A stretch of 13,606 nucleotides of DNA, from NCBI GenBank assembly GCA_013695175.1, contig JACDAZ010000259.1, forward strand, positions 1-13,606, written 5' to 3'. Source of the DNA: Flavisolibacter sp. Lineage in GTDB: Bacteria; Bacteroidota; Bacteroidia; Chitinophagales; Chitinophagaceae. This document shows positions 1 to 13,606 of the stretch, piece after piece. The stretch's first letter is position 1. Every line of letters begins with the position of its first letter. A model generated the notes under the pieces. That model worked only from the letters and a program-made list of their open reading frames with translations. It was not told where the DNA came from and searched no databases. Both the position numbers and the translations under genes were made by a program.

Positions 1-16
1 TTATACCTCTACTCAT
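1..16 (-). CDS. Possible start of a further operon gene, cut by the left window edge
   Basis: Two bases after the YceI stop codon there is an ATG on the minus strand (positions 16-14) followed by an open frame reading M-S-R-G-I before the window ends. The spacing matches the tight packing of the genes upstream. Five codons are too few to identify a product. From memory, YceI genes of Bacteroidota are often followed by a β-barrel gene of the DUF5777 type, but nothing here tests that, and the ATG may be chance. Confidence 0.22.
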
Positions 17-18
17 AA

Positions 19-558
19 CTATTTCAATAAAAATTCTGCTTTAACAGAAACATCAATTTGCTCTGAAATTTTATCTCTTACCACTGACGGAATTTTAATA
101 TTAAAGTCTTGTGGCTTTAATTTAAAATTTGAAACAGCAGTGAGTTTACCTGATCTAATTTCTACTGTAGCCGGAACAGTAATTGATTTTGTTACACCAT
201 GAAAGCTTAAATTTCCCTTTACCTCAATTGGATAGATTCCTTCCTGTAAATAATTTACATTTCCTGTAAATATTCCGCTAAAATCAGCTTTAGGATATTT
301 GTCGCTTTCAGCATAATTTTCATTAAAATGCTGCTGCATTAATTGCTTTTTAAATAAAAAACTTTTCACCAAAAGTGTAAATGCAAGTTGTTGCTTATCT
401 AAATCAATTACTGTTCTTACCTGCCTGTTTTCAGCCCTGATATCTTCCAAAGGAGTTTTAGAAAAAAATCCTATATAGGCATTACCTGTACTATACTTCT
501 GAGCATGCACAAAATTTGAAGTAAAAAATAATGCAAGAAATAATAGAAATATTTTCAT
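19..558 (-). CDS. YceI-family periplasmic lipid-binding-like protein
   Basis: This is a 179-residue secreted protein of the YceI family, whose members form a periplasmic lipocalin-like β-barrel that binds long hydrophobic molecules such as polyisoprenoids. Residues 1-20 (MKIFLLFLALFFTSNFVHAQ) are a clear signal peptide ending in AHAQ-like sequence. The mature part carries family features: F-x-S-K-T near 32-35, K-Y-P-K-A-D-F near 87-93, G-N-L-S-F-H-G-V-T-K near 115-124, and a C-terminal D-F-N-I-K-I-P segment. I chose the ATG at 558. A GTG at 579 is in frame but would overlap the preceding gene and put seven residues before the signal peptide. The gene is the last complete member of the minus-strand unit and starts four bases after the haem lipoprotein stop, so co-expression with that protein is likely. 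The bound ligand cannot be inferred. Confidence 0.88.
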   Translation of the reverse strand: MKIFLLFLALFFTSNFVHAQKYSTGNAYIGFFSKTPLEDIRAENRQVRTVIDLDKQQLAFTLLVKSFLFKKQLMQQHFNENYAESDKYPKADFSGIFTGNVNYLQEGIYPIEVKGNLSFHGVTKSITVPATVEIRSGKLTAVSNFKLKPQDFNIKIPSVVRDKISEQIDVSVKAEFLLK

Positions 559-562
559 AGCA

Positions 563-958
563 TCAATTATTAGGTGCACCCCTGTTAATCCAACCTCTTA
601 TTCTGTTAATGTTACAATCAGAAAGTTTAGGTAAACCCTTTGGCATCGGTGAAAATCCTGCAGCATGGGTTATAGTACCTAATAATTTTCCATCATCTAC
701 TCTGGCTTTTAAATTAGCATATCCCTCAAGGCTGATTCCTGATATTGCCATATTTGCAGTGCTATGGCAACTAAAGCAATTAGTTTGAATAAGTGGCGCT
801 ATATGTGCTGCATATTGCATATTTACTGTATCGCATGCTCCCGGTGGAGGATTATTGCCCGGTGGAGGATTCTGCTGTGTTGTTTCATTACTTTTTGAAC
901 AGGAGTAATAAAACATCAGTAAGAGGCAAAAACATAAGATGCTTATTATCTTTTTCAT
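563..958 (-). CDS. Haem-c-binding lipoprotein (small monohaem cytochrome c-like)
   Basis: This 131-residue protein has an N-terminal hydrophobic segment ending in YYSC (Cys20), read as a lipoprotein signal, then a Pro/Gly/Asn-rich linker (residues 30-40) and a compact domain with one haem attachment motif, CFSCH, at residues 61-65. The Met in S-P-M-P-K-G (residue 105) is a good candidate for the second axial haem ligand. W-I-N-R-G-A-P at the C-terminus is typical of the planctomycete-type or PSCyt-like cytochrome domains found in Bacteroidota. It should sit as a lipid-anchored electron carrier on the periplasmic face of a membrane. I prefer the ATG at 958, eleven bases after the OB-fold gene. 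An in-frame upstream start at 988 would overlap that gene and lengthen the basic n-region. Its electron donor and acceptor are unknown. Confidence 0.85.
   Translation of the reverse strand: MKKIISILCFCLLLMFYYSCSKSNETTQQNPPPGNNPPPGACDTVNMQYAAHIAPLIQTNCFSCHSTANMAISGISLEGYANLKARVDDGKLLGTITHAAGFSPMPKGLPKLSDCNINRIRGWINRGAPNN
840..871. repeat. Two-copy tandem repeat encoding the Pro-Gly linker
   Basis: The 14-base unit CCCGGTGGAGGATT occurs at 840-853 and again at 858-871, an 18-base period. It encodes the duplicated P-P-P-G-N-N linker of the haem lipoprotein. The period is a multiple of three, so copy-number change would lengthen or shorten the tether without breaking the frame. Confidence 0.75.
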
Positions 959-969
959 TTTATAAAATT

Positions 970-1380
970 TTAATTTTCTATTATACAATCCACCAGGTAT
1001 ACGTCACTTAGAAAGCCCGTACAACGTCCTTTAATCTTTATAATATTTCCGGAAAACATTTTTTCATTTTTATTCTCTTTATCTAATTCAGCATTTATGC
1101 CTCCGTTATCATTACCAGCTATCAGCTTAATTATTAAATGCTCAGCTGTCTCTGAAATCTCTTTTATAGTACCGGTTACAACAAGTATCTTATCAACATA
1201 TTTTGCAGTTGCCCCAGCTTCATTTTTTTCAAATGCATTATATAATTCAACAGCAGTTAATTCATATTCAGCATCTTGTCCAACTACATTTTTTCTTGGT
1301 TGCTGGTATAGGTAATACAACCATCCGGCGGTCATAACAAGCAATAAGGTGCCAGCCAAATAAATCCACTTTTTTTGCAT
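970..1380 (-). CDS. Membrane-anchored OB-fold protein (tRNA_anti-like)
   Basis: This 136-residue protein has a single N-terminal membrane helix (about residues 5-25) and a soluble domain of the tRNA_anti-like/OB-fold putative lipoprotein type. Recognisable elements are the V-E-L-Y-N-A-F-E-K-N-E helix (44-54), A-K-Y-V-D-K-I-L-V-V-T-G-T-I (59-72), and the ending G-R-C-T-G-F-L-S-D-V-Y-L-V-D-C (118-132), with two cysteines in the spacing usual for this family. There is no lipobox cysteine, so it is probably an inner-membrane protein facing the periplasm rather than a lipoprotein. The family name refers to fold similarity and does not imply tRNA binding, and its biochemical role is not known. The start ATG lies three bases after the barrel protein's stop codon, placing it firmly inside the sigma-factor unit. 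Confidence 0.8.
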   Translation of the reverse strand: MQKKWIYLAGTLLLVMTAGWLYYLYQQPRKNVVGQDAEYELTAVELYNAFEKNEAGATAKYVDKILVVTGTIKEISETAEHLIIKLIAGNDNGGINAELDKENKNEKMFSGNIIKIKGRCTGFLSDVYLVDCIIEN

Positions 1381-1383
1381 TGA

Positions 1384-2601
1384 TTATTGATCCATTTTTT
1401 TACTAAACGGGTACCGTACTCCCACCAAAATACCGGCACTTGATAATCGCATATCACCTACTCCCATACCCTTTACCGGTAGTTTTACATAAGGCTCTAT
1501 CCTTAACGCAGTTAGTTTTCCTACTCTTTTTTCAAAACCTGCTCCCAGGTTTATTACGTTGAACAATTCATTTGAAGATTTGCTATATGATTTATTACTG
1601 CTGTATATATTGTTATACCTGCTATATTGATAATCGTACTCTTCCCTCTGAACGAGGTATGATGATAAACCTGCCAAAGCAAATAAATTATAGTTATTGT
1701 TTGTTGCGATATTATACCTGATGTTGAGTGGTATTTCAATCATGTTGCAATACCCTGAGACATTGAGCAGTTTACTGTGATCAGGTAAATACAATTTTTC
1801 AGCTTTAAAATATTCTCCTTCTGCAACATATTTTTTCTGATCTAAAAATGCGCCGGTTTCAACTGAAATTCTCTTTGTTAACTTAAATCCTACGGTAATT
1901 CCAATACTGTGACCGGCTGCTTTAATTTCACTGAATTTTACCGTACTGATGTCTGGTCCCAATAAAAAAGCTGCATAAAATCTTTTTTCCTTTGCAGACT
2001 TTGTTTTCACAGGAATTATTTGATCTTCCGTCTTTTTATTTTCTGTAGAATTTTCATCTGTGATCTTGATTACAGAATCTTCATGTAAAGTCGAAGTAAT
2101 ATTTTCATTACCATTCGAGCCAGAAACGTCTGAAACACTCAGGTTCTCTATTTTTTCATGTGTTGCATCAGCATCAATATTTTTTTCAACTAACTCTAAT
2201 AAAGTAGTAGTTGCATCTTGTGCGTATACAGGTGTAGTATAATAATGCTTTAATGTTCCAAATTTTTTAACTAATGGGTTTTTATTGTTGTTATTGCTTA
2301 ATGCGATAAACCCGATATTATTTTTTTCTTTTAAAGGCGGATTTATATTAATATTTTTCAGATTAGCTTTTGATTGGTTATTGTATAAAATGTAATAAAA
2401 TTCATTGCACAATAAACTGCTTAGCAAAAACAGCAGAAGAAATAAATATTTTTTACTTTTTTCTTCAGCTTTTACAGATGCTTCTTCTTTATTAACAAGC
2501 TTGTTGAACACACTATCCCAATCAGCTCCTTTTGCCTTTATGGGATTCAATTCGGCTGCCTGCCTTACCAGATCTTCTATATGGTCATTCCGAAATTGCA
2601 T
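1384..2601 (-). CDS. Putative anti-sigma/outer-membrane β-barrel fusion (PorT-like C-terminus)
   Basis: This 405-residue protein has an unusual layout. Residues 1-50 are hydrophilic, with D-H-I-E-D-L-V-R-Q-A-A and A-D-W-D-S-V-F-N-K-L, a pattern seen at the N-terminus of Bacteroidota proteins encoded beside ECF sigma factors. Residues 51-73 form one hydrophobic helix. Residues 74-205 are an Asn/Lys/Thr/Glu-rich linker, and 206-405 form an outer-membrane β-barrel domain of the PorT-like type (I-E-I-P-L-N-I-R-Y near 288-296, I-E-P-Y-V-K-L-P near 368-375, G-V-R-Y-P-F at the end). The start codon lies inside the sigma gene, with a 17-base overlap, implying translational coupling. I infer that the N-terminus binds the sigma factor in the cytoplasm while the rest senses the envelope. 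No classical anti-sigma domain such as FecR is visible, so that role is a context-based inference. Confidence 0.78.
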   Translation of the reverse strand: MQFRNDHIEDLVRQAAELNPIKAKGADWDSVFNKLVNKEEASVKAEEKSKKYLFLLLFLLSSLLCNEFYYILYNNQSKANLKNININPPLKEKNNIGFIALSNNNNKNPLVKKFGTLKHYYTTPVYAQDATTTLLELVEKNIDADATHEKIENLSVSDVSGSNGNENITSTLHEDSVIKITDENSTENKKTEDQIIPVKTKSAKEKRFYAAFLLGPDISTVKFSEIKAAGHSIGITVGFKLTKRISVETGAFLDQKKYVAEGEYFKAEKLYLPDHSKLLNVSGYCNMIEIPLNIRYNIATNNNYNLFALAGLSSYLVQREEYDYQYSRYNNIYSSNKSYSKSSNELFNVINLGAGFEKRVGKLTALRIEPYVKLPVKGMGVGDMRLSSAGILVGVRYPFSKKMDQ

Positions 2602-3163
2602 ATTTCATTTTATCACTATCTTTTTTAAATATTTTTTGTAAATGAGCTTTCGCTTTAAACAAATTTGATTTAGATGTACCAACTGATATATTCATCAAAG
2701 CAGCGATCTCTTTATGAGAATATCCATCTACCACATATAAGTTAAATACTGCACGGTAAGCAGGCGGTAAACTTTTAACCTGTTTTAATATCTCTTTATA
2801 TAATAATCCCTGGTCTGCCTGTCCATGCTGATCACTCAGTTCCCATGCCTCATCAGGCATAGCTCCAATTTCAGGCATCAGGTTGTTTTTCCTTAATTCA
2901 TCAATTGCAGTATGAATGATGATCTTTTTGATCCATGCCAGCAGGTTGTATTCATTTATAGGTTCCTCTTTAATAATATAACCGTAAAAATTTCTGAAGA
3001 TTTTTACAAAACCGTCATTCACCACTTCCGGAATATTATCGTAATGGTATATATACCTGAAAGCTATTTTAAAGGCATAGTTATAATACTGCTCATAAAG
3101 TATTTTCTGATACTTATGATCATTAACTATACATCCTTTTAATATAGAATTCAGATCTTCCAA
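2585..3163 (-). CDS. ECF-type RNA polymerase sigma factor (sigma-70 family)
   Basis: This 192-residue sigma factor has only regions 2 and 4. Region 2 spans about residues 22-92, with the N-Y-A-F-K-I-A-F-R-Y-I core, D-G-F-V-K-I-F-R-N-F and L-L-A-W-I-K-K-I. Region 4 spans about 125-178, with L-P-P-A-Y-R-A-V-F-N-L and the helix-turn-helix H-K-E-I-A-A-L-M-N-I-S-V-G-T-S-K-S-N-L. It should direct RNA polymerase to a small regulon, probably including its own operon. The only start near the expected N-terminus is TTG at 3163-3161: the frame is open upstream for about 25 codons without an ATG or GTG, and the next in-frame ATG falls after region 2. The gene heads a five-gene unit and overlaps the fused barrel protein, its likely regulator, by 17 bases. 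Confidence 0.92.
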   Translation of the reverse strand: MEDLNSILKGCIVNDHKYQKILYEQYYNYAFKIAFRYIYHYDNIPEVVNDGFVKIFRNFYGYIIKEEPINEYNLLAWIKKIIIHTAIDELRKNNLMPEIGAMPDEAWELSDQHGQADQGLLYKEILKQVKSLPPAYRAVFNLYVVDGYSHKEIAALMNISVGTSKSNLFKAKAHLQKIFKKDSDKMKYAISE

Positions 3164-3234
3164 AACCTTATAGCTAAATGAGTTCTTTAATGGAAGAATA
3201 CGGAGCTTTTAATACACAGGTTGCCTGCCAGTAT

Positions 3235-3261
3235 ATTTTATTTTAAGCTACAAAATAAAAT
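3235..3261. promoter_or_regulatory. Perfect 10-base inverted repeat upstream of the sigma-factor gene
   Basis: ATTTTATTTT at 3235-3244 and its exact complement AAAATAAAAT at 3252-3261 flank a seven-base loop. It lies about 48 bases past the GLPGLI stop and 72 bases before the sigma TTG start. The stem is entirely A/T, so it would be a weak intrinsic terminator for the upstream unit. It could instead be an operator, and it overlaps a minus-strand TATTTTG that resembles a Bacteroidota -7 element. The role is undecided. Confidence 0.4.
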
Positions 3262-3309
3262 TGATGTAAAATATATTGTTAGAATAAAAATGGGGTAAGC
3301 GTAAATAAG

Positions 3310-4047
3310 CTAAATAGCAAAATTGATGATCATTTTACTGCCATATTTACCCCATTGACGCATTATTTTATCAAGAGATTGCAACATATCACTTCTTGAT
3401 ACTTTTTTACCTTTGGTAGCTGGTACTACGGCCTTCATATTAACATCAAAAACTTCCACTTTAGTAGCAAACCATGTTGCATGTAATCGTGGTATGCCCA
3501 TTCCAAGGATCATTCCCGGTAATCCATGAATACCTTCAGGTCCACCGTTGATGATGAATTCATCTGAATAAAATGCAAATATGGCAATGGAATCATCTAA
3601 TATGCCTACAGCTTTCCTGCATTCATACCCGGCAATGATTCTGGTATCAGGAGTAATTTTCCATTTAATTTTTAAAAGGCTGTCTTCTATTAAAAATGTT
3701 TCTTCATAAACAGGTTTTTGAGATATGGATTTCCCTGATTTGAAATCTGTAAAAATTACATTTTTATCAGCAACAGGCCTGTACCAGCTGCGTGGATCAA
3801 TAGCTGCATCTTTACCCGGTTTAAAAACAGATCTTGTACTGTCGCCAATAAATTCATGATATGTTATTGCTGTTTGGGGTAAACGTTCTTTGATCTGGTC
3901 ATACCACTGCGGATCCAACTCCTTATAAATAGCATGAACATTAAGTGTTTTTTCAAACTCAATTTTCACCTTACCAAAAAACTGCGTTTGTGCATGTATG
4001 TTGCCTGCAATAAACAAAGTGAAAACTATGATTAATAACTTTTTCAT
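3310..4047 (-). CDS. GLPGLI family protein
   Basis: This 245-residue exported protein has a signal peptide (residues 1-20, ending IHAQ) and the family signature H-G-L-P-G-M-I-L at about 174-181. The mature part shows the usual GLPGLI order: an early F-G-K-V-K-I-E-F-E strand, a middle D-S-L-L-K-I-K-W-K and I-A-G-Y-E-C-R-K-A stretch (about 122-146), a central F-Y-S-D-E-F region, then the signature followed by W-F-A-T-K-V-E-V. The C-terminus after the signature is short. The family is confined largely to Bacteroidota and has no established biochemical function. Its genes very commonly follow TonB-receptor-like barrels, as here, where only six bases separate it from the 915-residue barrel gene. 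It probably acts in the periplasm or at the outer membrane with that partner. Confidence 0.9.
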   Translation of the reverse strand: MKKLLIIVFTLFIAGNIHAQTQFFGKVKIEFEKTLNVHAIYKELDPQWYDQIKERLPQTAITYHEFIGDSTRSVFKPGKDAAIDPRSWYRPVADKNVIFTDFKSGKSISQKPVYEETFLIEDSLLKIKWKITPDTRIIAGYECRKAVGILDDSIAIFAFYSDEFIINGGPEGIHGLPGMILGMGIPRLHATWFATKVEVFDVNMKAVVPATKGKKVSRSDMLQSLDKIMRQWGKYGSKMIINFAI

Positions 4048-4053
4048 AATTAA

Positions 4054-6801
4054 TTATTTTCCGGGCACTTTATTAAACGACCATTCAAACCGCAACAGGA
4101 AGTATTGACCTACTCTTAAAAAGCGTTCTTCTGTCACAAATGTGCTGGAGATGTTCCTGTTAAAGCCCCTGTTTTGATCTAATATATCATTGCTGACAAG
4201 CAAGATCTTACCACTTTTATCTTTGAAAACAGTTCTTCCAATACTTGAATTCAATTGAATGATGTTTAGGTTATCAGCAAAAGCATCTATCTGTTGTCTC
4301 ATATCAAACCTTACATCGCTTCGTAGTTCAATTTTGCCCGGCAACATAATGAATCCATTTATATTACCACCATAAGTAAAAAAGTTGTTGCTTAAGTTTG
4401 GCTGAATAGAAGACCTTGAATAGTTATGTCCTACTTCCGGGCGAATTTCAAAACTGAATTTTTCTTCTTTTGATGCCATCACACTAAAACTGAACCTGAT
4501 GTTTCTAAAGTCTACAACATTTTTTCTGCCGTTTACAAACATGTTATTCCGGCCACCATTGCCGCTCAATTGTAAACCATAACCAAGTTTACCGGGTTCA
4601 GCACCTTTATGCCAGTTACTCCAAACATTCCAGGTATGGTTACCGTCAACATTTATTGGAGTATAAAATTGTTTACCTGTAAGTGTATCCAATATATTGT
4701 AATTGGTTATTGCATTATCCATAAAATTAAGGCTGGCACTCACCCATACACCCCTGCGTTTTAAAACTTTGTACTCATTAAAAAAGGCATTAATGTTATG
4801 ATTGAAGCCCACTTTTAGATCAGGATTACCTGTAAACTCATAGAGTGGATCATTATTATCTCGGATGGGTTGTAATTGATTTATGGTAGGCTGCCTGGTA
4901 GTACCTCTATAGTTTATTGATACTGATGTTTGAGGCTTGAACTGGTAATTTAACTGCGACTGCGGTGTGAAGTTCAAAAATCGGTAACGTGATTTTTGTG
5001 CGTCATCTATATTTAATAAATTAAGTGTAACAGCAGAAAAACCGGAACCCAAAGCAAAACGTAATTTTTTATCTACAAATCTTAAAATAGCCATACTGCT
5101 ATGCGAATAAGCATTCATATCAAAATTGTTGCTGAATGCAGTATCAAGCATTTCATACTTTCCGCTGGAACTTTTATTAAATGTATTTCTGAAAGATGAA
5201 GAATTATTTCGGTTATGACTATAATCTAATACCAGGTTGAATTTGGCTGACAAAGGCTCACTAAAGGTTATTTTTCCACCGACTGTTTGTGAATTACCAT
5301 CAAATTTTTTGTATTGGTCTATTAAAGCTGCAGAATCAAAAACTCCATTTTTAAAATACTCTATTTGAGTAATGATGGTATTTTCCTGGTCATCATCTGT
5401 AACACCAAAATGTAAAGCAGTAATTAGTTGCCTGTTTTTCTTTTTAAACAGCTGCTTATATGTTAAGCGGTTATCGGTCTGCATCCGGATTGTATTCCCA
5501 TCCCTGCCCTGGTTGCTTTTATTTACAAACTCCTGGGCCATGTTTAAAAATTCACTTGTGGTGTTGGTGAATTGATCAGTAATTTTTCTTAAACCTGCAG
5601 TTGTGAATTTGAAAGAAGCAAATGAATCCACCTTCCACTCATACTTGGCATTAATTGCATGTTGTTCATTCAACCCCGTACTGTTTGTAAACCTGTTACG
5701 ATAGTTAACAGTGTTGGGTAAAATATTTTGAGTTAATACTGATCCTACATTTGTTGATGAAAGCTTATTGTACCTGTATGATCCATTAATATTGTGTTTG
5801 TCCTCATCCCATTTATTACTGTATAAAGCACCTGCAGTACTGGAGTTTGGCAAACCTCTTAAGCTCCAGTCATTAAAACCATCATCCGAGCCAAAGCTGT
5901 AATAAAAACCACTTATATCATCAAACTCCATATCTTCTTCCATACCCAATTTTCTTCTATCTTCCCAGTTTAAACTGCCTGTACTAATATCACTTTTTGT
6001 GGCATAAAGAGATAGTTTTTTCTTACCTACAAAGCGGTTGTATAATGCTTTTGCATCTACATAATCTTTAAAGTCGGAAGCTGCATGAAATTTACCAAAG
6101 CCTCCTTTTTTCTGGTCTTCTTTTAGCTTGATATTTATAGTTTTGCCATCGCTACCGGTTGAAATGCCTGTCAGTTGCTGCTGTTCAGATTTAGTATCAA
6201 ATACCTGCACTTTATCTACAGCTTTAGCAGAAATGTTTTGTGTTGCCATAGTGGGATCGTCACCAAAAAATTCTTCGCCATCTACAAGTACTTTGTCAAC
6301 TCTTCTTCCCTGTGCAGTTATTTCACCTTTTGTATTTACCTGTAAACCCGGCAATTTCTTCAGCAGGTCTTCTACTGTTGCACCTTCTCTTACAATAAAA
6401 CTGTCTGCTGTAAATTCTGTTGTATCGCCCCTGATTTTTATTGCCTGTCCGCTTCGTATTACAACTTCCTGCAACAGAATACTCCGTGGTGTTAATGTAA
6501 TACTGCCTAAGTCCAGGTCGCCCTCAAGTTTATATTCGTCAGCAAAATCTGCATATTTTGGATATGAAATAAGTAAGATGTAATTCCCCTGCTCAATTTC
6601 CGGTAATATAAATTCACCCTCCTTATTGGAACGGGTATAAGTTATAAGCGTACTGTCTTTTTTAGACATTAATGTTACAACTGCATGTTGTAAATTTTTA
6701 TTTTCAGATGTATCTCTTATTGCCCCTTTAAGAGTGAACTGTGCCTGTGAAGACAGGGAAAAGAAGAAGGTTATAAGCAGAAAGAAGAAGCAATTTTTCA
6801 T
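4054..6801 (-). CDS. TonB-receptor-like outer-membrane β-barrel protein with carboxypeptidase-regulatory domain
   Basis: This 915-residue outer-membrane protein starts with a signal peptide (1-20, SSQA before Gln21). Residues 22-105 form a carboxypeptidase-regulatory-like β-sandwich (F-T-L-K-G-A-I-R-D, then G-E-F-I-L-P, G-N-Y-I-L-L-I-S-Y). Residues 108-230 form a plug domain with E-V-V-I-R, T-V-E-D-L-L-K-K-L-P-G-L-Q-V (142-155) and V-L-V-D-G-E-E-F-F-G-D-D-P (171-183). The remainder is a large β-barrel of the outer-membrane protein β-barrel family 3 type, ending in an alternating aromatic strand (L-R-F-E-W-S-F-N). Such proteins are TonB-receptor relatives thought to move or bind large ligands, but the substrate cannot be read from the sequence. 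It is neither SusC-like in length nor followed by a SusD gene; its partner is the GLPGLI protein downstream. A possible promoter and inverted repeat lie just upstream. Confidence 0.9.
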   Translation of the reverse strand: MKNCFFFLLITFFFSLSSQAQFTLKGAIRDTSENKNLQHAVVTLMSKKDSTLITYTRSNKEGEFILPEIEQGNYILLISYPKYADFADEYKLEGDLDLGSITLTPRSILLQEVVIRSGQAIKIRGDTTEFTADSFIVREGATVEDLLKKLPGLQVNTKGEITAQGRRVDKVLVDGEEFFGDDPTMATQNISAKAVDKVQVFDTKSEQQQLTGISTGSDGKTINIKLKEDQKKGGFGKFHAASDFKDYVDAKALYNRFVGKKKLSLYATKSDISTGSLNWEDRRKLGMEEDMEFDDISGFYYSFGSDDGFNDWSLRGLPNSSTAGALYSNKWDEDKHNINGSYRYNKLSSTNVGSVLTQNILPNTVNYRNRFTNSTGLNEQHAINAKYEWKVDSFASFKFTTAGLRKITDQFTNTTSEFLNMAQEFVNKSNQGRDGNTIRMQTDNRLTYKQLFKKKNRQLITALHFGVTDDDQENTIITQIEYFKNGVFDSAALIDQYKKFDGNSQTVGGKITFSEPLSAKFNLVLDYSHNRNNSSSFRNTFNKSSSGKYEMLDTAFSNNFDMNAYSHSSMAILRFVDKKLRFALGSGFSAVTLNLLNIDDAQKSRYRFLNFTPQSQLNYQFKPQTSVSINYRGTTRQPTINQLQPIRDNNDPLYEFTGNPDLKVGFNHNINAFFNEYKVLKRRGVWVSASLNFMDNAITNYNILDTLTGKQFYTPINVDGNHTWNVWSNWHKGAEPGKLGYGLQLSGNGGRNNMFVNGRKNVVDFRNIRFSFSVMASKEEKFSFEIRPEVGHNYSRSSIQPNLSNNFFTYGGNINGFIMLPGKIELRSDVRFDMRQQIDAFADNLNIIQLNSSIGRTVFKDKSGKILLVSNDILDQNRGFNRNISSTFVTEERFLRVGQYFLLRFEWSFNKVPGK

Positions 6802-6818
6802 CCAGGTGTTTATTAAAT

Positions 6819-6845
6819 ATTATTCGACTAAATACTACGAATAAT
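6819..6845. promoter_or_regulatory. Perfect 8-base inverted repeat in the leader of the β-barrel gene
   Basis: ATTATTCG at 6819-6826 is matched exactly by CGAATAAT at 6838-6845, with an 11-base spacer that itself contains ACTA twice. The arms lie 18 to 44 bases upstream of the ATG at 6801 and immediately downstream of the candidate promoter, so this could be an operator or a leader hairpin. An eight-base perfect repeat in AT-rich DNA can also arise by chance. Confidence 0.4.
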
Positions 6846-6850
6846 TTCGC

Positions 6851-6881
6851 ACAAGTTAGAGTTAATGAATTCACCTGCAAA
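6851..6881 (-). promoter_or_regulatory. Candidate Bacteroidota-type promoter for the barrel/GLPGLI unit
   Basis: On the minus strand TTTG (6881-6878) is followed after 19 bases by TAACTTGT (6858-6851). The known Bacteroidota pattern is TTTG or TTG near -33 and TAnnTTTG near -7 with about 19-21 bases between. The -33 match is exact and the -7 match is partial. The inferred transcript would start near 6844, giving a leader of about 45 bases. Confidence 0.3.
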
Positions 6882-7034
6882 ACCGTTCATCAAAAACTTA
6901 TATGTGATATTGTATCATAAATGTCCTCTCTTCATTTAATAAAAGATCATGATGTTCAAAACTTCATGTGCTGTAATACCTTTAATTACTATAATTTGAA
7001 GAAAGCAGTACTGTTAATTTGTAAATCAAAAAAA

Positions 7035-7865
7035 ATGAATTCAGAACCAATTGTTGTAAAGGAAAAACTTGATGCCCCAGTTACTAAAGTCTGGAACGCC
7101 ATTACAGATAAAAAAATAATGAAGCATTGGTATTTTGATATTGCAGATTTTAAACCTGAACCTGGTTTTGAATTTCAATTTACAGGAGGTGAAGAAGTTA
7201 AGTACCTGCACCTTTGTAAAATAAGAGAAGTAATACTACTGAAAAAATTGTCCTATACTTGGGTATATGAAGGTCAGGATGCAGAAACACTTGTAACCTT
7301 TAACTTAGAAGAAGATGGTAACAAAACCTGGGTAGAACTGGTACATGAAGGTGTTGAAAAGTTAGCACCTTATGGTGCTGACTTTGCTAAAGAAAATTTT
7401 ATAAAAGGCTGGAGCCATATCATTGGAACTTCTCTTAAAGAAGCTGTTGAAACAATGAAGATCACTTCTTCAATAGAAATAAATTCCCAACCTGAAACTG
7501 TTTGGAATCTATTGGTAGATCATGAAAAAATAAAACAATGGGCAGCTGCTTTTTCGGAAGGAACAACGATAGAAACAAACTGGAGTATAGGATCTGAAGT
7601 GATTTGGAAAGATGGTGAAGGAAATATAGGAGCTAAGGGAATTGTAAAGATATTTCAACCTCACAAAAAATTACATGTGCGTTATTACGACGATGCCAAC
7701 GCTGAACCGGGTTCGCCTTTAGGTGATTACTCTGAGATTTTTAACATAGATGGCAGCACTTTACTAAAGATTGAATCAGGACCTGTTATGAAAAAGCATG
7801 GTCTTATGCAACAACCTATGTGGGAAGATGCATTAATAAGAATAAAAACTATGGCAGAGAAATAA
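7035..7865 (+). CDS. Tandem SRPBCC (AHSA1-like) domain protein
   Basis: This 276-residue cytoplasmic protein is made of two successive SRPBCC/AHSA1-type (START-like, Bet v 1 fold) domains. Domain one is about residues 5-140, starting with V-V-K-E-K-L-D-A-P-V-T-K-V-W-N-A-I-T and ending in W-S-H-I-I-G-T-S-L-K-E-A-V-E-T-M. Domain two is about 141-274, restarting with I-T-S-S-I-E-I-N-S-Q-P-E-T-V-W-N-L-L. These folds bind hydrophobic ligands in a central cavity; AHSA1 relatives of eukaryotes stimulate Hsp90, but bacterial ones mostly have no proven role. I use the ATG at 7035. An upstream in-frame ATG at 6921 would add 38 residues that do not resemble the fold and lie in AT-rich leader sequence. 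Upstream is the divergent barrel operon. No signal peptide is present. Confidence 0.87.
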   Translation: MNSEPIVVKEKLDAPVTKVWNAITDKKIMKHWYFDIADFKPEPGFEFQFTGGEEVKYLHLCKIREVILLKKLSYTWVYEGQDAETLVTFNLEEDGNKTWVELVHEGVEKLAPYGADFAKENFIKGWSHIIGTSLKEAVETMKITSSIEINSQPETVWNLLVDHEKIKQWAAAFSEGTTIETNWSIGSEVIWKDGEGNIGAKGIVKIFQPHKKLHVRYYDDANAEPGSPLGDYSEIFNIDGSTLLKIESGPVMKKHGLMQQPMWEDALIRIKTMAEK

Positions 7866-7879
7866 TTATTTTTCTAAAC

Positions 7880-7972
7880 CTAAACATCTTCTCTAAATGA
7901 AAGCACACCTTCCTGGTCAACCCATGCTGTAAAATAACTGATAGATACAGGCACAGGTTGTGGTAGAGATTT
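7880..7972 (-). pseudogene. Relic of a YcbB-type L,D-transpeptidase C-terminus
   Basis: Read on the minus strand, this stretch gives 30 codons between an in-frame TAG at 7975-7973 and a TAG at 7882-7880. The translation contains L-P-Q-P-V-P-V-S-I-S-Y-F-T-A-W-V-D, then G-V-L-S-F-R-E-D-V. That is the characteristic C-terminal end of large L,D-transpeptidases of the YcbB/LdtD type (pattern PVP-V-x-x-x-Y-x-T-A-W-V-D-x-x-G-x-x-x-F-R-x-D-x-Y), with the stop where the conserved Tyr would be. The same frame continues upstream of the first TAG to about 8008 and may be part of the relic. The catalytic His and Cys region is absent. The piece is too short and interrupted to be functional, so I call it the remnant of a deleted or replaced gene. 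Confidence 0.68.
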
Positions 7973-8016
7973 CTACTTAATCCTCATCTTTTTGTAGTTT
8001 ACACCAAATCAATTGA

Positions 8017-8889
8017 ATGTTTGCAAAAGCATACAGCATTGCTGCTGATTATACATTTCCTGTTTTAGGTTCATTCCGTTATTTTGATGGAACAATAGAA
8101 AGTGGTTTAGGTTCTTTTGTAATTATTAATAATGAAGGCTGGATCATAACTGCAGCACATATTCTTGATCCAACACTTTTACACCAGAAGCAATCGGTTG
8201 AAATTCAAAAATACAACCAGGAGAAAGCGCTTATTGAAAATAATCAAGCACTGGCAGAAAAAGAAAAACAAAGAAGGTTTAAAAAAATGCACCCTAATCA
8301 AAAATGGATAAGTAATTATTCAATGTGGTGGGGAGCTGATCATCATTTTGTTAAATCATTTTTTATTTTAAAAGAAAACGATTTTGCAATTGGGAAAATA
8401 GAAAATTATAATCCTGCTTTTGCAAAACAATATCCTGTATTCAAAGATCCCGCAACGCTTCTTCATGGTACCAGTTTATGTAAATTAGGTTTTCCTTTTT
8501 ATGATGTGAAACCAACATTTGATGAAAAGCTGAACCGCTTCGCATTTGATCCCTCTATTTTTCCTATACCACGTTTTCCTATAGAAGGAATTTTTACACG
8601 AAATATTGCAATGGGAAAATCTGCAGATGGCAAATACGATATTCGATTTATTGAAACATCAAGCCCGGGATTGAGAGGGCATAGCGGCGGTCCAACATTT
8701 GACAGGGATGGAAAAATTTGGGCTATTCAAAGTCAGACACGCCATTTCCCATTAGGCTTCTCACCCAAAATAAAAATTCAAAATAAAGAAGTACAGGAAA
8801 ATCAATTCCTGAATGTGGGTTGGGGTGCTCACGTTGGAACTATTTTAAAATTTTTGGATGCTCATGAAATTAAATATCAAACCGGTTAA
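8017..8889 (+). CDS. Trypsin-like serine protease without export signal
   Basis: This 290-residue protein has the chymotrypsin-fold catalytic triad in the right order: His48 in W-I-I-T-A-A-H-I, Asp122 in N-D-F-A-I-G-K-I, and Ser223 in R-G-H-S-G-G-P-T-F. The G-S-F-V-I-I-N-N-E-G-W strand before the His and the W-A-I-Q-S-Q-T strand after the Ser also fit trypsin-like peptidase domains. Between His and Asp is a long insertion (about residues 56-108), with a Lys/Glu/Gln-rich helix from 60 to 91 and a W-W-G-A-D-H-H segment. No signal peptide, lipobox or membrane helix is visible, so it should be cytoplasmic unless exported by an unusual route. No PDZ domain follows. The start ATG at 8017 lies about 45 bases past the relic transpeptidase fragment, and the gene is followed by 363 bases without a gene. 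Substrate unknown. Confidence 0.83.
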   Translation: MFAKAYSIAADYTFPVLGSFRYFDGTIESGLGSFVIINNEGWIITAAHILDPTLLHQKQSVEIQKYNQEKALIENNQALAEKEKQRRFKKMHPNQKWISNYSMWWGADHHFVKSFFILKENDFAIGKIENYNPAFAKQYPVFKDPATLLHGTSLCKLGFPFYDVKPTFDEKLNRFAFDPSIFPIPRFPIEGIFTRNIAMGKSADGKYDIRFIETSSPGLRGHSGGPTFDRDGKIWAIQSQTRHFPLGFSPKIKIQNKEVQENQFLNVGWGAHVGTILKFLDAHEIKYQTG

Positions 8890-9252
8890 TAATTAAAAAT
8901 TACCACTATCAAGACTACTTTTTGTATTTGATTAAACTACCAGAATTTTTATTTAAATACTTTGCATAATCAGCGCAATTGATTTTTCTAACAAAAAGTT
9001 CATACTGTTATTTAATAACAACCTATTCGGGTAATTTTTTGTCATAAGTCAACAATAAATTTTTTAATTAAATAAGCTAATTGCGAAGGGTGTAAGAAAT
9101 GAAAAGATGGAATTTGCGATTTAAATGACTACCTTTATAACCATATGATATTCAATAAATTATTATTACTGTTGTGCCAGTTTTGATAATATTAACATCT
9201 ATCATAAAATTATCTAATTAATGTTGCAATTATTTGCCTGATTGGGTAATAA
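8890..9252. other. Gene-free AT-rich interval
   Basis: I found no supportable gene, RNA or strong hairpin terminator in this 363-base interval. The frames contain only very short open stretches, including a nine-codon plus-strand frame at 9099-9128 and a roughly 30-codon minus-strand frame without a start around 8915-9010. The right end carries the candidate promoter of the L,D-transpeptidase gene. The length is notable beside the otherwise tight packing and is discussed as a possible scar of gene loss. Confidence 0.6.
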
Positions 9253-9264
9253 ATGGGAAATTTG
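9233..9264 (+). promoter_or_regulatory. Candidate Bacteroidota-type promoter for the murein L,D-transpeptidase gene
   Basis: TTTG at 9233-9236 is followed after exactly 20 bases by GAAATTTG at 9257-9264. That matches the TTTG / TAnnTTTG promoter pattern of Bacteroidota except for the first base of the -7 element. Transcription would begin near 9270, downstream of the ATG at 9253, which supports the ATG at 9298 as the true start of the gene. Confidence 0.38.
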
Positions 9265-9297
9265 TGGTCCATTCTTTCAAAAAAATCTCGAAAATTT

Positions 9298-10035
9298 ATG
9301 CAGCAAATGAATTTCTTCACCGTCCTTTTCATCACCTTTTCAGCAGCTTTAACATCATTTAATAATTATCCGGAACAAAATAACTCCGTTGTTTTAAATA
9401 CAGCTGTTGCTTCTGTTGAAGAAAATGATGCTCCTGCAGTTTCAAAATACGCTACTTTATATGATGGCTTAGATCTGGATAAAGCAGGATTGGGAAAAGA
9501 AGCATTTGATCAAGCAATAAATGGATATGAAAAACTGATTGAAGACGGTACTGTTAAAAACCATCGTTATTTAACCATCATAGACTTTAGCCAGTCATCA
9601 CGCAAAAAAAGATTTTATCTTCTTGATCTAGAGAACGGTAAAATTGTAAAAAACACTCTTGTTTCTCACGGTAAAAATACAGGTGTTGATATGGCAGAAA
9701 GATTTTCAAACAAAATAAATTCTGAGCAAAGTTCTTTGGGTTTTTATGTAACTACTGTTACGTATTCAGGCAAGCATGGTTTATCATTAAGATTATCCGG
9801 GCAGGAAAAAGGATTTAATGACAATGCTGAAGCAAGAGGTATTGTTATGCATGGCGCTGCTTATGTTAATGCAAGCAGAATAAATAGTGCTTATATGGGA
9901 AGAAGCCAGGGTTGTCCTGCACTTGCCGAAAATGAATATGCAGAAGTGATCAAATTAATAAAAGATGGTTCTGTTATGTTTATATATCATCCTTCCCAAA
10001 ATTACCTGAATAATTCGCCACTGTTAAACAGCTGA
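9298..10035 (+). CDS. Murein L,D-transpeptidase catalytic domain family protein (YkuD_2 type)
   Basis: This 245-residue exported protein has a YkuD_2-type catalytic domain. From the ATG at 9298, residues 1-20 form a signal peptide (M-N-F-F-T-V-L-F-I-T-F-S-A-A-L-T). Residues about 50-85 are a short helical region (Y-D-G-L-D-L-D-K-A-G-L-G-K-E-A-F). The catalytic region holds the conserved G-I-V-M-H-G-A (His185) and the nucleophile in G-R-S-Q-G-C-P-A-L (Cys206). Such enzymes act on peptidoglycan stem peptides in the periplasm by an L,D-transpeptidase or related mechanism; activity of this subfamily is inferred from the conserved Cys/His. A start at 9253 is also in frame and would add 15 residues with a strongly basic n-region, but a candidate promoter overlaps it. 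The gene converges on cbpM with only two bases between stop codons. Confidence 0.87.
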   Translation: MQQMNFFTVLFITFSAALTSFNNYPEQNNSVVLNTAVASVEENDAPAVSKYATLYDGLDLDKAGLGKEAFDQAINGYEKLIEDGTVKNHRYLTIIDFSQSSRKKRFYLLDLENGKIVKNTLVSHGKNTGVDMAERFSNKINSEQSSLGFYVTTVTYSGKHGLSLRLSGQEKGFNDNAEARGIVMHGAAYVNASRINSAYMGRSQGCPALAENEYAEVIKLIKDGSVMFIYHPSQNYLNNSPLLNS

Positions 10036-10037
10036 GA

Positions 10038-10334
10038 TCAGTTCTCATACTTACGTAGTTTATTTTTCAACATTACTAGTTCATCCTGTGTCTCTTCCAG
10101 TTTTTGAAGGAGTTGGTTTATAACATCAATCCCTTCCAGGTTTATATTTAAATCATAATGGAGACGTATTATTTTTTCTACTTCCTGTAATTCTGTTACA
10201 TCAAGGTAATTTCTTTCTTCAACTGTAACCACTTCTACCAAACCGTAATCCTTCAATAGGTCAAGAAAAGTAATTTCAATATTATAATAGCGACAAAATT
10301 CTGAAGCGGGGAATAAGTTTTCTGTTTGCATCAT
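10038..10334 (-). CDS. cbpM: CbpM-like chaperone modulator
   Basis: This 98-residue protein resembles CbpM, the small MerR-like modulator that binds the J-domain of CbpA and inhibits its co-chaperone and DNA-binding activities. The N-terminal half (residues 7-60) reads as a winged-helix MerR-like fold, with F-P-A-S-E-F-C-R-Y-Y-N-I, F-L-D-L-L-K-D-Y-G-L and Y-L-D-V-T-E-L-Q-E-V-E-K-I-I-R-L-H-Y-D-L-N-I-N-L-E-G-I. Residues 70-98 form a short coiled coil (L-L-Q-K-L-E-E-T-Q-D-E-L). Its start overlaps the stop of the cbpA-like gene by four bases (ATGA), so the two are translationally coupled. The gene begins with two adjacent ATG codons, and I take the first. The assignment rests on family resemblance plus the neighbouring gene. 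Confidence 0.88.
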   Translation of the reverse strand: MMQTENLFPASEFCRYYNIEITFLDLLKDYGLVEVVTVEERNYLDVTELQEVEKIIRLHYDLNINLEGIDVINQLLQKLEETQDELVMLKNKLRKYEN

Positions 10335-11215
10335 GATCTCAGTTTTGATAATTCATGAAATAATTCTTTTTCTTTAGTGGTAAGGTTTTTAGGAACTAAT
10401 ATAGTATAGCTAACAAATAAGTCGCCATATTCATTCTCCTTCTTATAAACTGGAAAACCTTTACCTTTTAAACGAACTGTGGTTCCGTTTTGTGTTTCAG
10501 GCGGAACTTTTAATTTAAGCTTTCCATGAAGCGTATCTATTGTAACATCACCTCCTAAAACAGCTATATACAAATCAATTTTTACATCAGATAAAAGATT
10601 TTTTCCATCCCGCTTAAATACAGGATCATCAGCAATAATAAAGGTGATAAATAAGTCTCCGGCTGGTCCACCATTTACTCCGGGTCCTCCATGGCCTTTT
10701 AATTTTATCTTCTGACCATTCTCAACCCCGGCAGGAATAGTAATTCGAATATTTTTATTATTTACTGTAAGTGTTTGCTGGTGTGTTGTAAATGCATCTT
10801 TTAGATTCAAGTGTAATTCTGCCTGGTAGTCGTTACCCCTGAATTTTGTTTGCCTTCTACCACCCTCCCCAAACATGGAAGCAAAAAAATCAGAAAAACC
10901 TTCCTCATCAAATCCCCCTGAGTAAGAAGCTCCTCCGGCACGTGCTCCTCTTTGTGATTGCTGATTTCTTGCCTGTTCAAATTGGTCTGCATGTTGCCAG
11001 TCTTTGCCATACTGGTCATATTTTTTTCTTTTTGCAGGATCACTTAATACTTCATTTGCTTCATTGATCTGTTGAAATTTCTTGTGAGCCTCTTTATCAT
11101 TTGGATTCAGATCGGGATGATACTTTCTTGCTAACTTTCTATAGGTCTTCCTGACATCTTCTGTTGTTGCACTTTTATCTATGCCTAATATTTTATAATA
11201 ATCAACAAACTCCAT
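10331..11215 (-). CDS. cbpA: CbpA-like DnaJ-family co-chaperone
   Basis: This 294-residue Hsp40 protein begins with a complete J-domain (residues 5-70; D-Y-Y-K-I-L-G, and H-P-D at 33-35, the motif that stimulates the ATPase of DnaK). A Gly/Ser/Phe-rich linker follows (about 88-122; G-F-S-D-F-F-A-S-M-F-G), then two C-terminal substrate-binding β-domains (about 128-285). In these, L-H-L-N-L-K-D-A, I-P-A-G-V-E-N-G-Q-K-I-K-L-K-G-H-G and V-P-P-E-T-Q-N-G-T-T-V-R-L-K-G-K-G-F-P are readable. There is no cysteine zinc finger, which separates it from DnaJ and matches CbpA, as does the downstream CbpM. It should work in the cytoplasm with DnaK in protein folding. The upstream 95 bases are shared with the divergent lipoprotein gene and contain a 12-base palindrome. 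Confidence 0.92.
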   Translation of the reverse strand: MEFVDYYKILGIDKSATTEDVRKTYRKLARKYHPDLNPNDKEAHKKFQQINEANEVLSDPAKRKKYDQYGKDWQHADQFEQARNQQSQRGARAGGASYSGGFDEEGFSDFFASMFGEGGRRQTKFRGNDYQAELHLNLKDAFTTHQQTLTVNNKNIRITIPAGVENGQKIKLKGHGGPGVNGGPAGDLFITFIIADDPVFKRDGKNLLSDVKIDLYIAVLGGDVTIDTLHGKLKLKVPPETQNGTTVRLKGKGFPVYKKENEYGDLFVSYTILVPKNLTTKEKELFHELSKLRS

Positions 11216-11234
11216 ACATCTGGTTAATCGTTTG

Positions 11235-11282
11235 TAAATTTAATTGAATCCCTTAACAGCCGGTATGACTAAATTTAGTTGA
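11235..11282. promoter_or_regulatory. Repeated TAAATTTA element with a 12-base palindrome between divergent genes
   Basis: TAAATTTAATTGA at 11235-11247 recurs as TAAATTTAGTTGA at 11270-11282, a 35-base spacing. The second copy sits in the perfect 12-base palindrome ACTAAATTTAGT (11268-11279). Both are between the divergent cbpA and lipoprotein starts, so they could be binding sites for a shared regulator or overlapping -7-type elements reading both ways. Low sequence complexity makes chance a real alternative. Confidence 0.35.
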
Positions 11283-11310
11283 CAAATACATTCTAATTAA
11301 ATAAACCATC

Positions 11311-12036
11311 ATGAGAAGAACTATTGTATTATTTATTACCGTTGCAAGTATTATCAGTTGTACGACCTTAAAGGTGAATACACAACCCTCTCTTACTGGC
11401 TCATGGCATAACCAGTCAGGAAACATTAAAGAAGTAATGGTTTTTCAGGATGCTTATTTTTCTTATACAAAATATGACCAGGCAAATAAATTGTTTATAG
11501 AAACCAAAGGTGGATCATACCATCATGATAACAATAGCAATACCTTACACCTGACCGTTGAATTCAATACTACAGATAAAGAAAATGTTGGAAAAATGGA
11601 AACTTATGAGGCAAGGGTAAGCAACAATCAGCTAACAACAAATATTGCAGGCAACTCCGAGTTTTACAACCGGTTGGATGATGGATCAGGAGCTTTAGCG
11701 GGCACCTGGCATTTTACAGGCAGAATGAATAATGGAAATATTCAAATAACCATTCCCGGAGCAAGGAAGACAGTAAAAATTCTTTCAGGCACTCGTTTTC
11801 AATGGATGGCCATTAATACCGAAACCAAAGAATTTTTTGGTACAGGTGGTGGCACTTACACCTTTAATAATGGCGTATACACAGAGAATATTGAATTCTT
11901 TTCAAGAGACAGCAGCCGGGTTGGTGCTTCGCTTCAATTTGAAGGAAGTGTTGCAAACCATGTATGGACGCATAAAGGAAACAACTCACGTGGCGAACCT
12001 TTACATGAGGAATGGACAAGAGTTGGTAAGTATTAA
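11311..12036 (+). CDS. Putative lipoprotein with two lipocalin-like repeats
   Basis: This 241-residue protein has a lipoprotein signal (residues 1-17, I-I-S-C with Cys17) followed by two related β-rich halves. Repeat one runs from L-T-G-S-W-H (28-33) and repeat two from L-A-G-T-W-H (129-134). Each carries a T-K-G-G-S-Y or T-G-G-G-T-Y turn (about 66-70 and 178-183), then an F-N-T-T-D-K or F-F-S-R-D-S strand and a V-G-K-M-E-T-Y-E-A or V-G-A-S-L-Q-F-E-G strand. That pattern resembles lipocalin-like or DUF4488-like secreted domains of Bacteroidota, though I cannot name a specific family with certainty. The protein should be lipid-anchored in the envelope. No catalytic residues stand out and the function is unknown. 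The gene starts 95 bases from the divergent cbpA and converges on the DUF418 gene with five bases between stops. Confidence 0.75.
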   Translation: MRRTIVLFITVASIISCTTLKVNTQPSLTGSWHNQSGNIKEVMVFQDAYFSYTKYDQANKLFIETKGGSYHHDNNSNTLHLTVEFNTTDKENVGKMETYEARVSNNQLTTNIAGNSEFYNRLDDGSGALAGTWHFTGRMNNGNIQITIPGARKTVKILSGTRFQWMAINTETKEFFGTGGGTYTFNNGVYTENIEFFSRDSSRVGASLQFEGSVANHVWTHKGNNSRGEPLHEEWTRVGKY

Positions 12037-12041
12037 CTAAT

Positions 12042-13439
12042 TCAGGATTTAGTTTTAGAAATCTGCATTGGTTGTTTTTTCCAGTAAGTAACAGAACGCC
12101 ACAACCATTCAAAAGGACCAAACCTGAAATACCTTAACCATATTGCTGAAAATATGATCTGGAAGGCCCATATACCTGCCACCACATAATACAACTGGTG
12201 AAATTGTAACTTATTGTAATTGCCTAATCCATATCCATAAAATATAAGTGTGCAAAAAATACTTTGCATCAGGTAATTAGTAAATGCCATTTGACCCACA
12301 TTTGCTAAACCTTTTTTAAACCAGGGAATGAAACTACTCCTGAAGATCAGCATTAGTACACTGGCATGACCTATGGTAAGCAATACTCTTCTCAAATCGT
12401 AAAGTGCCCAATGTGGAACACGGTAAGTATCCAGGTAAGTACCAATATTTTGCGAACCAACCCAACCTTCTTTAAAAACAAGCCAGCCTAAAGGAATTCC
12501 AATTCCATAGCCCAACATTACACCCATTGCATAATTTGAACTTTTGAATGTATTAGAAAAGAAGCCACCAAGAAATAATCCCATTCCTATTAACATCATA
12601 CTTAGCATATCCCACAAACCATGATACATACCCCATGTTTCTGATCCTGAATTACGTGGCATCAACCAGGTAAAGACAGTACCGTAACCGGAACGCATGT
12701 TGGTTACATTTTCAGTTGTTCTCTCCGGATCGGGATTTTGATTATTTTCTATACCTAACCATTCTGCTTTTGCTGCTTCCTGTTTTTCAGTAAGCTTTTG
12801 ATTTGCTTTTTCAGCAGCGATCGCTTCTATATAAGCAATTCTTTTTGCTCTAAATTCTGTATAACCCCACATGTTTTTGAATAAACCGATACCCATACAT
12901 ACAATACCTAGCATGATCAACCATTTTGGCGACATCTTTCTAAAAGGAAATAAAACCATTCCGCATAGACCATAGAAATATAAAATATCACCAGGCCATA
13001 AAAAAACATAAGCATTGATAACTCCAAACAAAACCAGCCATAATAAACGCCTGTAATAAAATTCTGCTACTGTAACACCACCGGGAACATCTTTTTTATT
13101 TAACGTGAACAGCACCATGCCTGCACCAAAGAGCATTGAAAATAAACCACGCATTGTACCGGAAAAGAAAGTTTCAATGACAGCCAATGTTCTAAAGTCA
13201 GCAGTATTCTGAGGTCCTCTTATAGCTTCACTCACCTGGCCCCAGTCAATGCCAAATCCAGGAATGTTCATTAATAATATTCCAAGAAGGGCTACACCTC
13301 TTATCATATCAATGCTTTGCAGACGATCTGCTTTTGATACAGGGGCAGGAGATGATTTAGTGATTTCTTTTGTTTCAACAATAGTTGGATCAGCAGGTAG
13401 TGTAACAGCTGAAGTATCTAAAGGAGTATTAGGTTCCAT
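12042..13439 (-). CDS. DUF418 family multi-pass membrane protein
   Basis: This 465-residue integral membrane protein has the DUF418/YeiB-like signatures. After a 35-residue hydrophilic N-terminus comes R-L-Q-S-I-D-M-I-R-G-V-A-L-L-G-I-L-L-M-N-I (39-59). A helix pair with F-S-M-L-F-G-A-G follows (about 99-107), then Y-Y-R-R-L-L-W-L-V-L-F-G-V-I-N-A-Y (128-144). A large charged loop spans about 195-260, followed by the C-terminal DUF418 domain with N-V-G-Q-M-A-F-T-N-Y-L-M-Q-S (380-393) and W-L-R-Y-F-R-F-G-P-F-E-W-L-W-R (434-448). About ten membrane helices are expected. The family shares features with membrane acyltransferases, but its substrate and reaction are not established. A second DUF418 gene ends 14 bases upstream in the same direction, so the pair is probably one transcript. 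Confidence 0.9.
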   Translation of the reverse strand: MEPNTPLDTSAVTLPADPTIVETKEITKSSPAPVSKADRLQSIDMIRGVALLGILLMNIPGFGIDWGQVSEAIRGPQNTADFRTLAVIETFFSGTMRGLFSMLFGAGMVLFTLNKKDVPGGVTVAEFYYRRLLWLVLFGVINAYVFLWPGDILYFYGLCGMVLFPFRKMSPKWLIMLGIVCMGIGLFKNMWGYTEFRAKRIAYIEAIAAEKANQKLTEKQEAAKAEWLGIENNQNPDPERTTENVTNMRSGYGTVFTWLMPRNSGSETWGMYHGLWDMLSMMLIGMGLFLGGFFSNTFKSSNYAMGVMLGYGIGIPLGWLVFKEGWVGSQNIGTYLDTYRVPHWALYDLRRVLLTIGHASVLMLIFRSSFIPWFKKGLANVGQMAFTNYLMQSIFCTLIFYGYGLGNYNKLQFHQLYYVVAGIWAFQIIFSAIWLRYFRFGPFEWLWRSVTYWKKQPMQISKTKS

Positions 13440-13453
13440 TTAGTAAAAATTAA

Positions 13454-13606
13454 TTATTGATAAAGTGCAGGAATAGTTGATTCAGGAATTTCCGGTTTTG
13501 ATTTTCTGTTTGTTGGCCATTTCCCATATACAAGTCGCCGCCACAATAATTCTGCAGGTCCGTAACGATACTTTCTCAACCACAAAACACTGAATATTAC
13601 CTGCAC
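13454..13606 (-). CDS. Second DUF418 family protein, C-terminal 50 codons (cut by right window edge)
   Basis: From the window edge the minus strand is open for 50 codons down to a TAA at 13456-13454. The reading V-I-F-S-V-L-W-L-R-K-Y-R-Y-G-P-A-E-L-L-W-R lines up with I-I-F-S-A-I-W-L-R-Y-F-R-F-G-P-F-E-W-L-W-R at the end of the complete neighbour, the C-terminal DUF418 signature. A hydrophilic tail of about 28 residues (R-L-V-Y-G-K-W-P-T-N-R-K-S-K-P onward) follows. The stop lies 14 bases before the start of the complete DUF418 gene, making a head-to-tail paralogous pair. The N-terminal part, its length and its start are outside the window. Confidence 0.87.
   Translation of the reverse strand: MQVIFSVLWLRKYRYGPAELLWRRLVYGKWPTNRKSKPEIPESTIPALYQ

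Follow-up and report, generated by a model that had tools for sequence, protein, structure and literature searches.

The window analysed here is a stretch of 13,606 nucleotides from Flavisolibacter sp. (assembly GCA_013695175.1, contig JACDAZ010000259.1, positions 1-13,606), and our subject is a compact gene unit within it that joins a regulator pair to a set of envelope proteins. The list of open reading frames (ORFs), taken together with Pfam matches, confirms five genes on the reverse strand, encoding an extracytoplasmic function (ECF) sigma factor, a barrel protein resembling the dual membrane-spanning anti-sigma factors (Dma), an OB-fold protein, a haem-c lipoprotein and a YceI protein (Table 1). 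With the starts chosen here, which for the haem-c and YceI genes are ATG codons within the listed 563-988 and 19-579 ORFs, the successive junctions measure -17, 3, 11 and 4 bases, as the initial annotation had reported. Because the identical order recurs in diverged relatives, this five-gene set is not a chance arrangement. All five genes of the original description are present, but the unit probably has six, the addition being a DUF5777 barrel.

Table 1. Features of the gene unit and its promoter in the window.
Feature	Positions	Strand	Basis
ECF sigma factor (Das-like), TTG start	2585..3163	-	Pfam Sigma70_r2, Sigma70_r4_2; NCBIfam sigma70-ECF above cut-off
Dma-like dual membrane-spanning anti-sigma	1384..2601	-	Layout: N-terminal helices, membrane helix, tether, 8-strand barrel
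OB-fold protein PF12869	970..1380	-	Pfam tRNA_anti-like 5.8e-17; alignment
Mono-haem c-type lipoprotein	563..958	-	Alignment of 9; cytochrome c6-like profile match 4e-6
YceI lipocalin-like periplasmic protein	19..558	-	Pfam 6.3e-16; profile matches solved YceI structures
ECF-type promoter AGGCAACC - 15 bases - CCGTAT, before sigma gene	3198..3226	-	Matrix score 26.7
Putative sixth gene start, inferred DUF5777 outer-membrane barrel, cut by contig end	1..16	-	ATG and relatives' gene order

The sigma factor matches Sigma70_r4_2 at 2.1e-17, in addition to Sigma70_r2. For the barrel protein, Pfam returns two families, OMP_b-brl (3.3e-6) falling just short of its cut-off and OMP_b-brl_2 lying right on its own, with no match in the N-terminal part. 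AlphaFold2 models two short helices at residues 8-18 and 28-37 (middling confidence), a membrane helix at 48-77, a disordered tether reaching to about residue 200 (predicted local distance difference test score, pLDDT, <50 across most of 78-180) and eight strands at 208-399 (high confidence) that resemble OmpA, NspA and OprF in structure comparison. The 25 aligned homologues share this build: some 45 N-terminal residues are followed by a hydrophobic helix, then by a tether (129-223 residues) and a barrel part (192-199 residues). The two-helix stretch 8-37 is kept in 25 sequences, with A15 and W28 invariant, and the most hydrophobic 19-mer begins at residue 47-62 in 24 of the 25 (at 72 in locus L024), its mean hydropathy ranging from 0.88 to 2.85 across homologues and reaching 1.82 in the window protein. 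The sigma gene adjoins the Dma gene both in the window, where the two overlap by 17 bases, and in the 30 listed loci of relatives (L001-L030). As this layout is the one published for Dma (PMC13088901), the regulator is not new; on its layout, we regard the barrel protein as a putative member of the Dma class of anti-sigma factors.

Searching genomes with a profile of the cytochrome alignment yielded 137 confirmed relatives, the best 80 of which were used as named loci. The sigma-Dma pair lies beside the cytochrome in 49 of these 80, and the full order sigma-Dma-OB-cytochrome-YceI-DUF5777 occurs in 32, with median gaps of -13, 25, 11, 14 and 3 bases (script-called starts). A CHRD protein replaces the OB-fold protein in eight loci from Rufibacter and Pontibacter (L053, L057, L059-L062, L075, L079), neither was found there in four, and the pair is otherwise arranged in five. 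Eleven loci that lack the pair carry a histidine kinase gene after the YceI gene (L073, L074, L077, L078, L081, L089, L093, L094, L100, L101, L110), joined in 10 of them by LytTR; Reg_prop, Y_Y_Y, His_kinase and LytTR were checked by Pfam in L073 only. None of these arrangements is seen within the examined stretch of the other 20. DUF5777 is present in 78 of the 80 loci and, more broadly, in 32/34 genomes of the genus and family, 42/99 sampled Bacteroidota and 0/14 control genomes.

In L109, L114, L118, L120, L122 and L123 the genes are rearranged, being divergent, convergent or swapped in order, yet the pair and the module stay together. When Dma is the starting point, the DUF5777 gene of the module turns up in 15 of the 30 stretches fetched. 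The proposition that such pairs never travel with these genes, which would have told against a unit, therefore fails, and the suggestion of a conserved unit is borne out. The window Dma finds a match at 1e-4 in 28 of 58 genomes, its own included. Within L122 (11128-12762), YceI and DUF5777 pieces are doubled with identical DUF5777 starts, probably an assembly duplication.

The sixth gene would lie across the contig end. Two bases after the YceI stop (21-19, reverse strand) stands an ATG at 16-14, from which five codons (M-S-R-G-I) can be read before the contig runs out. The sole DUF5777 match in the same genome lies on another contig, C427, in a frame open from the first base, where an ATG at base 4 gives the start M-T-R-G-F; both ends read GTTATGA, two differing bases and AGAGG before they diverge, and no exact end overlap longer than 5 bases joins them. 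In relatives, the gene after YceI is DUF5777. A tree of 79 DUF5777 proteins groups the C427 copy with four Chitinophagaceae copies, all from sigma-Dma loci (Shimodaira-Hasegawa-like approximate likelihood ratio test, SH-aLRT, 99), a placement made less sure by its long branch (0.8). We conclude that DUF5777 is probably the cut sixth gene of the unit and that C427 likely adjoins the window contig. The sigma-Dma label requires six changes on this tree, five of them forced by starred branches, and the pair has therefore undergone repeated gain, loss or relocation.

A GGCAACC...CGTA motif was first read in the sequences upstream of the sigma genes. From 48 of the 49 sigma upstreams we trained a two-box matrix for the promoter AGGCAACC-N14/15-CCGTAT, and the window site scores at the top of the range of these 48 training sites, whereas 99% of 1018 control upstreams score below 16.9. 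With this matrix, trained on the same 48, a site precedes 48/49 sigma genes as against 0/49 reversed sequences, the exception being L109. In the window, the promoter lies within the 146 bases between the sigma gene and the ORFs at 3310-6801 just ahead of it on the same strand, which comprise a Porph_ging protein and a 915-amino-acid ORF. The same motif stands ~20 bases ahead of the gene adjoining Dma in L119 (8319-16001), a locus from the same genus; Pfam identifies this gene as a sugar transferase, followed by an ABC transporter, a glycosyltransferase and, further on, B12/radical-SAM genes. The motif likewise stands ahead of the gene adjoining Dma in L120 (from 8311), L122 (1786-8043) and L126 (around 8311, reverse strand), a gene judged by eye to be of like kind, and this promoter-bearing gene may represent a second branch of the regulon in same-genus relatives. 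In L035 (from 10202), a CHRD gene past DUF5777 has a promoter site of its own, scoring 17.8.

The informative test of whether the sigma factor acts on the module lies in genomes in which the two are apart. Among 32 genomes with the module, 10 are collinear, 15 have a Dma that is not directly upstream and 7 have no Dma match. A site precedes the module head in 8 of the 15 detached Dma-containing genomes, 0 of the 7 without Dma and 10 of 1006 controls (Fisher p = 0.02, binomial 6e-13, values that are too good because the genomes are related), and no internal site precedes the head in any of the 10 collinear modules. In L120, L122 and L123 the module and the sigma gene point away from each other and a site precedes each; L114 and L118 have a module that reads towards dma and retains its own site; and in L177, L179 and L192 the site is present with the module and that genome's Dma on different contigs. 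A gene of ~710-725 amino acids ahead of some detached modules was excluded as a module part, its start in L184 and L186 reading, by eye, as that of a methionyl-tRNA synthetase.

This recurrence bears on the view that the barrel protein is no anti-sigma factor at all and that sigma, barrel and module just share a conserved operon. Sigma binding by the barrel protein is indeed a prediction, and the only Pfam families matched in more than one of the 25 homologues are barrel families. That a helix, tether and barrel of this layout should sit beside an ECF sigma gene, with the promoter recurring ahead of 8 of the 15 detached modules, makes this view very improbable.

Several observations do weigh against control of the module by the pair. 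All nine cytochrome query sequences were Dma-linked, which biases the sigma-Dma fraction upward. When the matrix is built from only 14 Hymenobacteraceae loci, it recovers 20 of the 35 other sigma promoters; on detached heads it gives 7/15 against 1/7. Seven of the 15 detached modules in Dma-containing genomes have no site at threshold: L178 (12.1) and L184 (11.3), together with L185 and L180, fall below it, L193 is a short contig that carries only DUF5777, L186 scores 0.9 before the head but 17.7 before OB, and L190 scores 2.0 before the head and 18.1 when anchored on an earlier cytochrome. Across 21 whole genomes, the strict pattern has 45 sites against 42 in the reversed control, so that single sites rest on their position. 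Even with these points, we hold it very likely, from motif and gene order, that Das/Dma controls the OB-cytochrome-YceI-DUF5777 module, and the earlier proposal that the sigma factor induces these genes is well founded at the level of sequence.

A wide regulon is not supported. The strict pattern occurs at 4 sites in the genome of the window against 2 in the reversed control; split by Dma, the 21 genomes give 44 sites against 29 where it is present (14 genomes) and 1 against 13 where it has no match (7 genomes). Of 30 strict sites examined as loci out of the 45, 21 lie inside an ORF of at least 150 amino acids, L213 among them and still a sigma promoter. With the motif hardly enriched genome-wide, the Das/Dma regulon of the module looks local. 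On contig C531 of the same genome (L146, ~1501-1530), a strong site of 24.1 lies near a gene judged by eye to have CHRD-like repeats; it points away from that gene and has no clear gene downstream.

Among the cargo proteins, the OB-fold protein has an N-terminal hydrophobic stretch, which we read as a membrane anchor. The haem-c lipoprotein, for which Pfam gives only a weak Cytochrome_CBB3 match (0.0043), carries one CxxCH, a lipobox cysteine and two more invariant cysteines; the alignment of nine was built without the first residue. YceI matches solved YceI/polyisoprenoid-binding proteins by profile, and DUF5777 is modelled as a 12-strand barrel resembling solved outer-membrane barrels, its listed fold matches being the KdgM and NanC porins, FapF, autotransporters, LpxR, FadL and OMPLA. 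Other lineages have PSCyt1-type cytochromes next to the module (L073, L085) or, in one locus, a redoxin (L084), which argues for its redox character.

One alternative reading of the cargo is a surface electron conduit, in which the haem-c protein and DUF5777 would pass electrons over the outer membrane and YceI and the OB-fold protein would feed them from the quinone pool. The modelled barrel, its near-constant presence at cytochrome loci and the additional cytochromes in other lineages would suit this arrangement. We nevertheless consider it unlikely: the window cytochrome has one CxxCH only, the DUF5777 fold matches single out no conduit, and the surface-export signal of the window cytochrome (CSKSNE, with one acid) is only partial, a point that also counts against our own explanation below. 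K at +3 is found in 28/53 Dma-linked and 11/31 other cytochromes, 19/75 background lipoproteins and 10/11 SusD, counts to be taken with caution: a lipobox was read in 84/99 cytochromes and 11/29 SusD, at times at the wrong cysteine.

We propose the following for how control runs, what the signal is, where the proteins sit and what the cargo does. The N-terminal helices of the Dma-like protein would hold the ECF sigma factor at the inner membrane, while the disordered tether would run through the periplasm and lead to an OmpA-like barrel seated in the outer membrane. The barrel may sense an envelope state, as initially suggested, and a change felt there would free the sigma factor to act at its promoter and raise its own operon. 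That operon would place an OB-fold protein at the inner membrane, the YceI lipocalin in the periplasm, and both a haem-c lipoprotein and the DUF5777 barrel in the outer membrane. Together these would most likely shuttle electrons, along with an isoprenoid lipid or a quinone, between inner and outer membrane, either quenching oxidised outer-membrane lipids or serving a surface redox reaction. Taken as a whole, a Das/Dma envelope operon with electron and isoprenoid/quinone cargo is a probable explanation.

It is also conceivable that the unit governs outer-membrane vesiculation or surface remodelling, with a cargo that acts on lipids or lipoproteins and not on electrons. Roles of Dma1 and Dma2 have been published, Dma1/Das1 acting in this way via NigD1 (PMC13088901), and the sugar transferase adjoining Dma bears the same promoter in some relatives. 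Yet such a role leaves the conserved haem protein difficult to explain, and removal of the dma2-adjacent genes left vesiculation unchanged (PMC13088901), so we regard this explanation as rather doubtful.

In Chitinophagaceae and Hymenobacteraceae, a Dma/sigma pair lies with one compact, redox-looking module. This linkage, and the recurrence of the motif in some of the genomes where pair and module are separate, point to a probable output of the regulator and hence to few candidate signals, and a redox output, if true, hints at the signal of a Dma. A bolder and more speculative proposal is that OB/YceI/haem-c/DUF5777 constitutes an undescribed envelope-spanning redox module, widespread among Bacteroidota and connected from lineage to lineage to differing sensors, either Das/Dma or a histidine kinase with LytTR, with Dma sensing oxidative or redox damage at the outer membrane. 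DUF5777, on which our literature search found no paper, gains a genomic context, and one module is seen beside different regulators. Literature searches likewise found no description of the cargo set, the promoter or the alternative regulators, as far as those searches reach. The unit had been put forward as a candidate for an undescribed system; within that scope, this stands for its composition but not for its regulator, which is of the published Dma kind.

The regulator compares closely with Das/Dma of Bacteroides thetaiotaomicron, an ECF21 sigma factor with a dual membrane-spanning anti-sigma factor (PMC13088901). In each, an ECF sigma gene adjoins that of a protein with N-terminal helices, a single membrane helix, a disordered tether and a C-terminal barrel, and more genes follow downstream within the operon. 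ECF21 is the group of the published Das; the window sigma factor is placed among ECF factors by Pfam and NCBIfam. Loss of Dma2 induces das2 and neighbouring genes, and a glycan is supposed to be the signal for Dma2 (PMC13088901). The cargo differs: the dma2 neighbours are BT_1557 (DUF4943), BT_1556 (DUF4858) and BT_1555 (enoyl-ACP reductase or nitronate monooxygenase-like) (PMC13088901), in place of the OB, haem-c, YceI and DUF5777 genes found here.

For the cargo, we tentatively favour a lipid/quinone redox role in the envelope, comparable to that of BcnA-LcoA. Isoprenoids or ubiquinone are the ligands of YceI proteins, and the YceI lipocalin BcnA acts together with the cytochrome b561 LcoA to limit lipid peroxidation by lipid-peroxyl detoxification, in a system that includes the cytoplasmic aldehyde reductase PsrA (PMC9113575). 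The two systems share a YceI protein genetically tied to a cytochrome. LcoA, however, is an inner-membrane b561, whereas the cytochrome here is a c-type lipoprotein, and none of the 9 window proteins scanned with Pfam matches a b561 family. The module also adds an OB-fold protein and an outer-membrane barrel, and its neighbouring regulator is either Das/Dma or a histidine kinase with LytTR.

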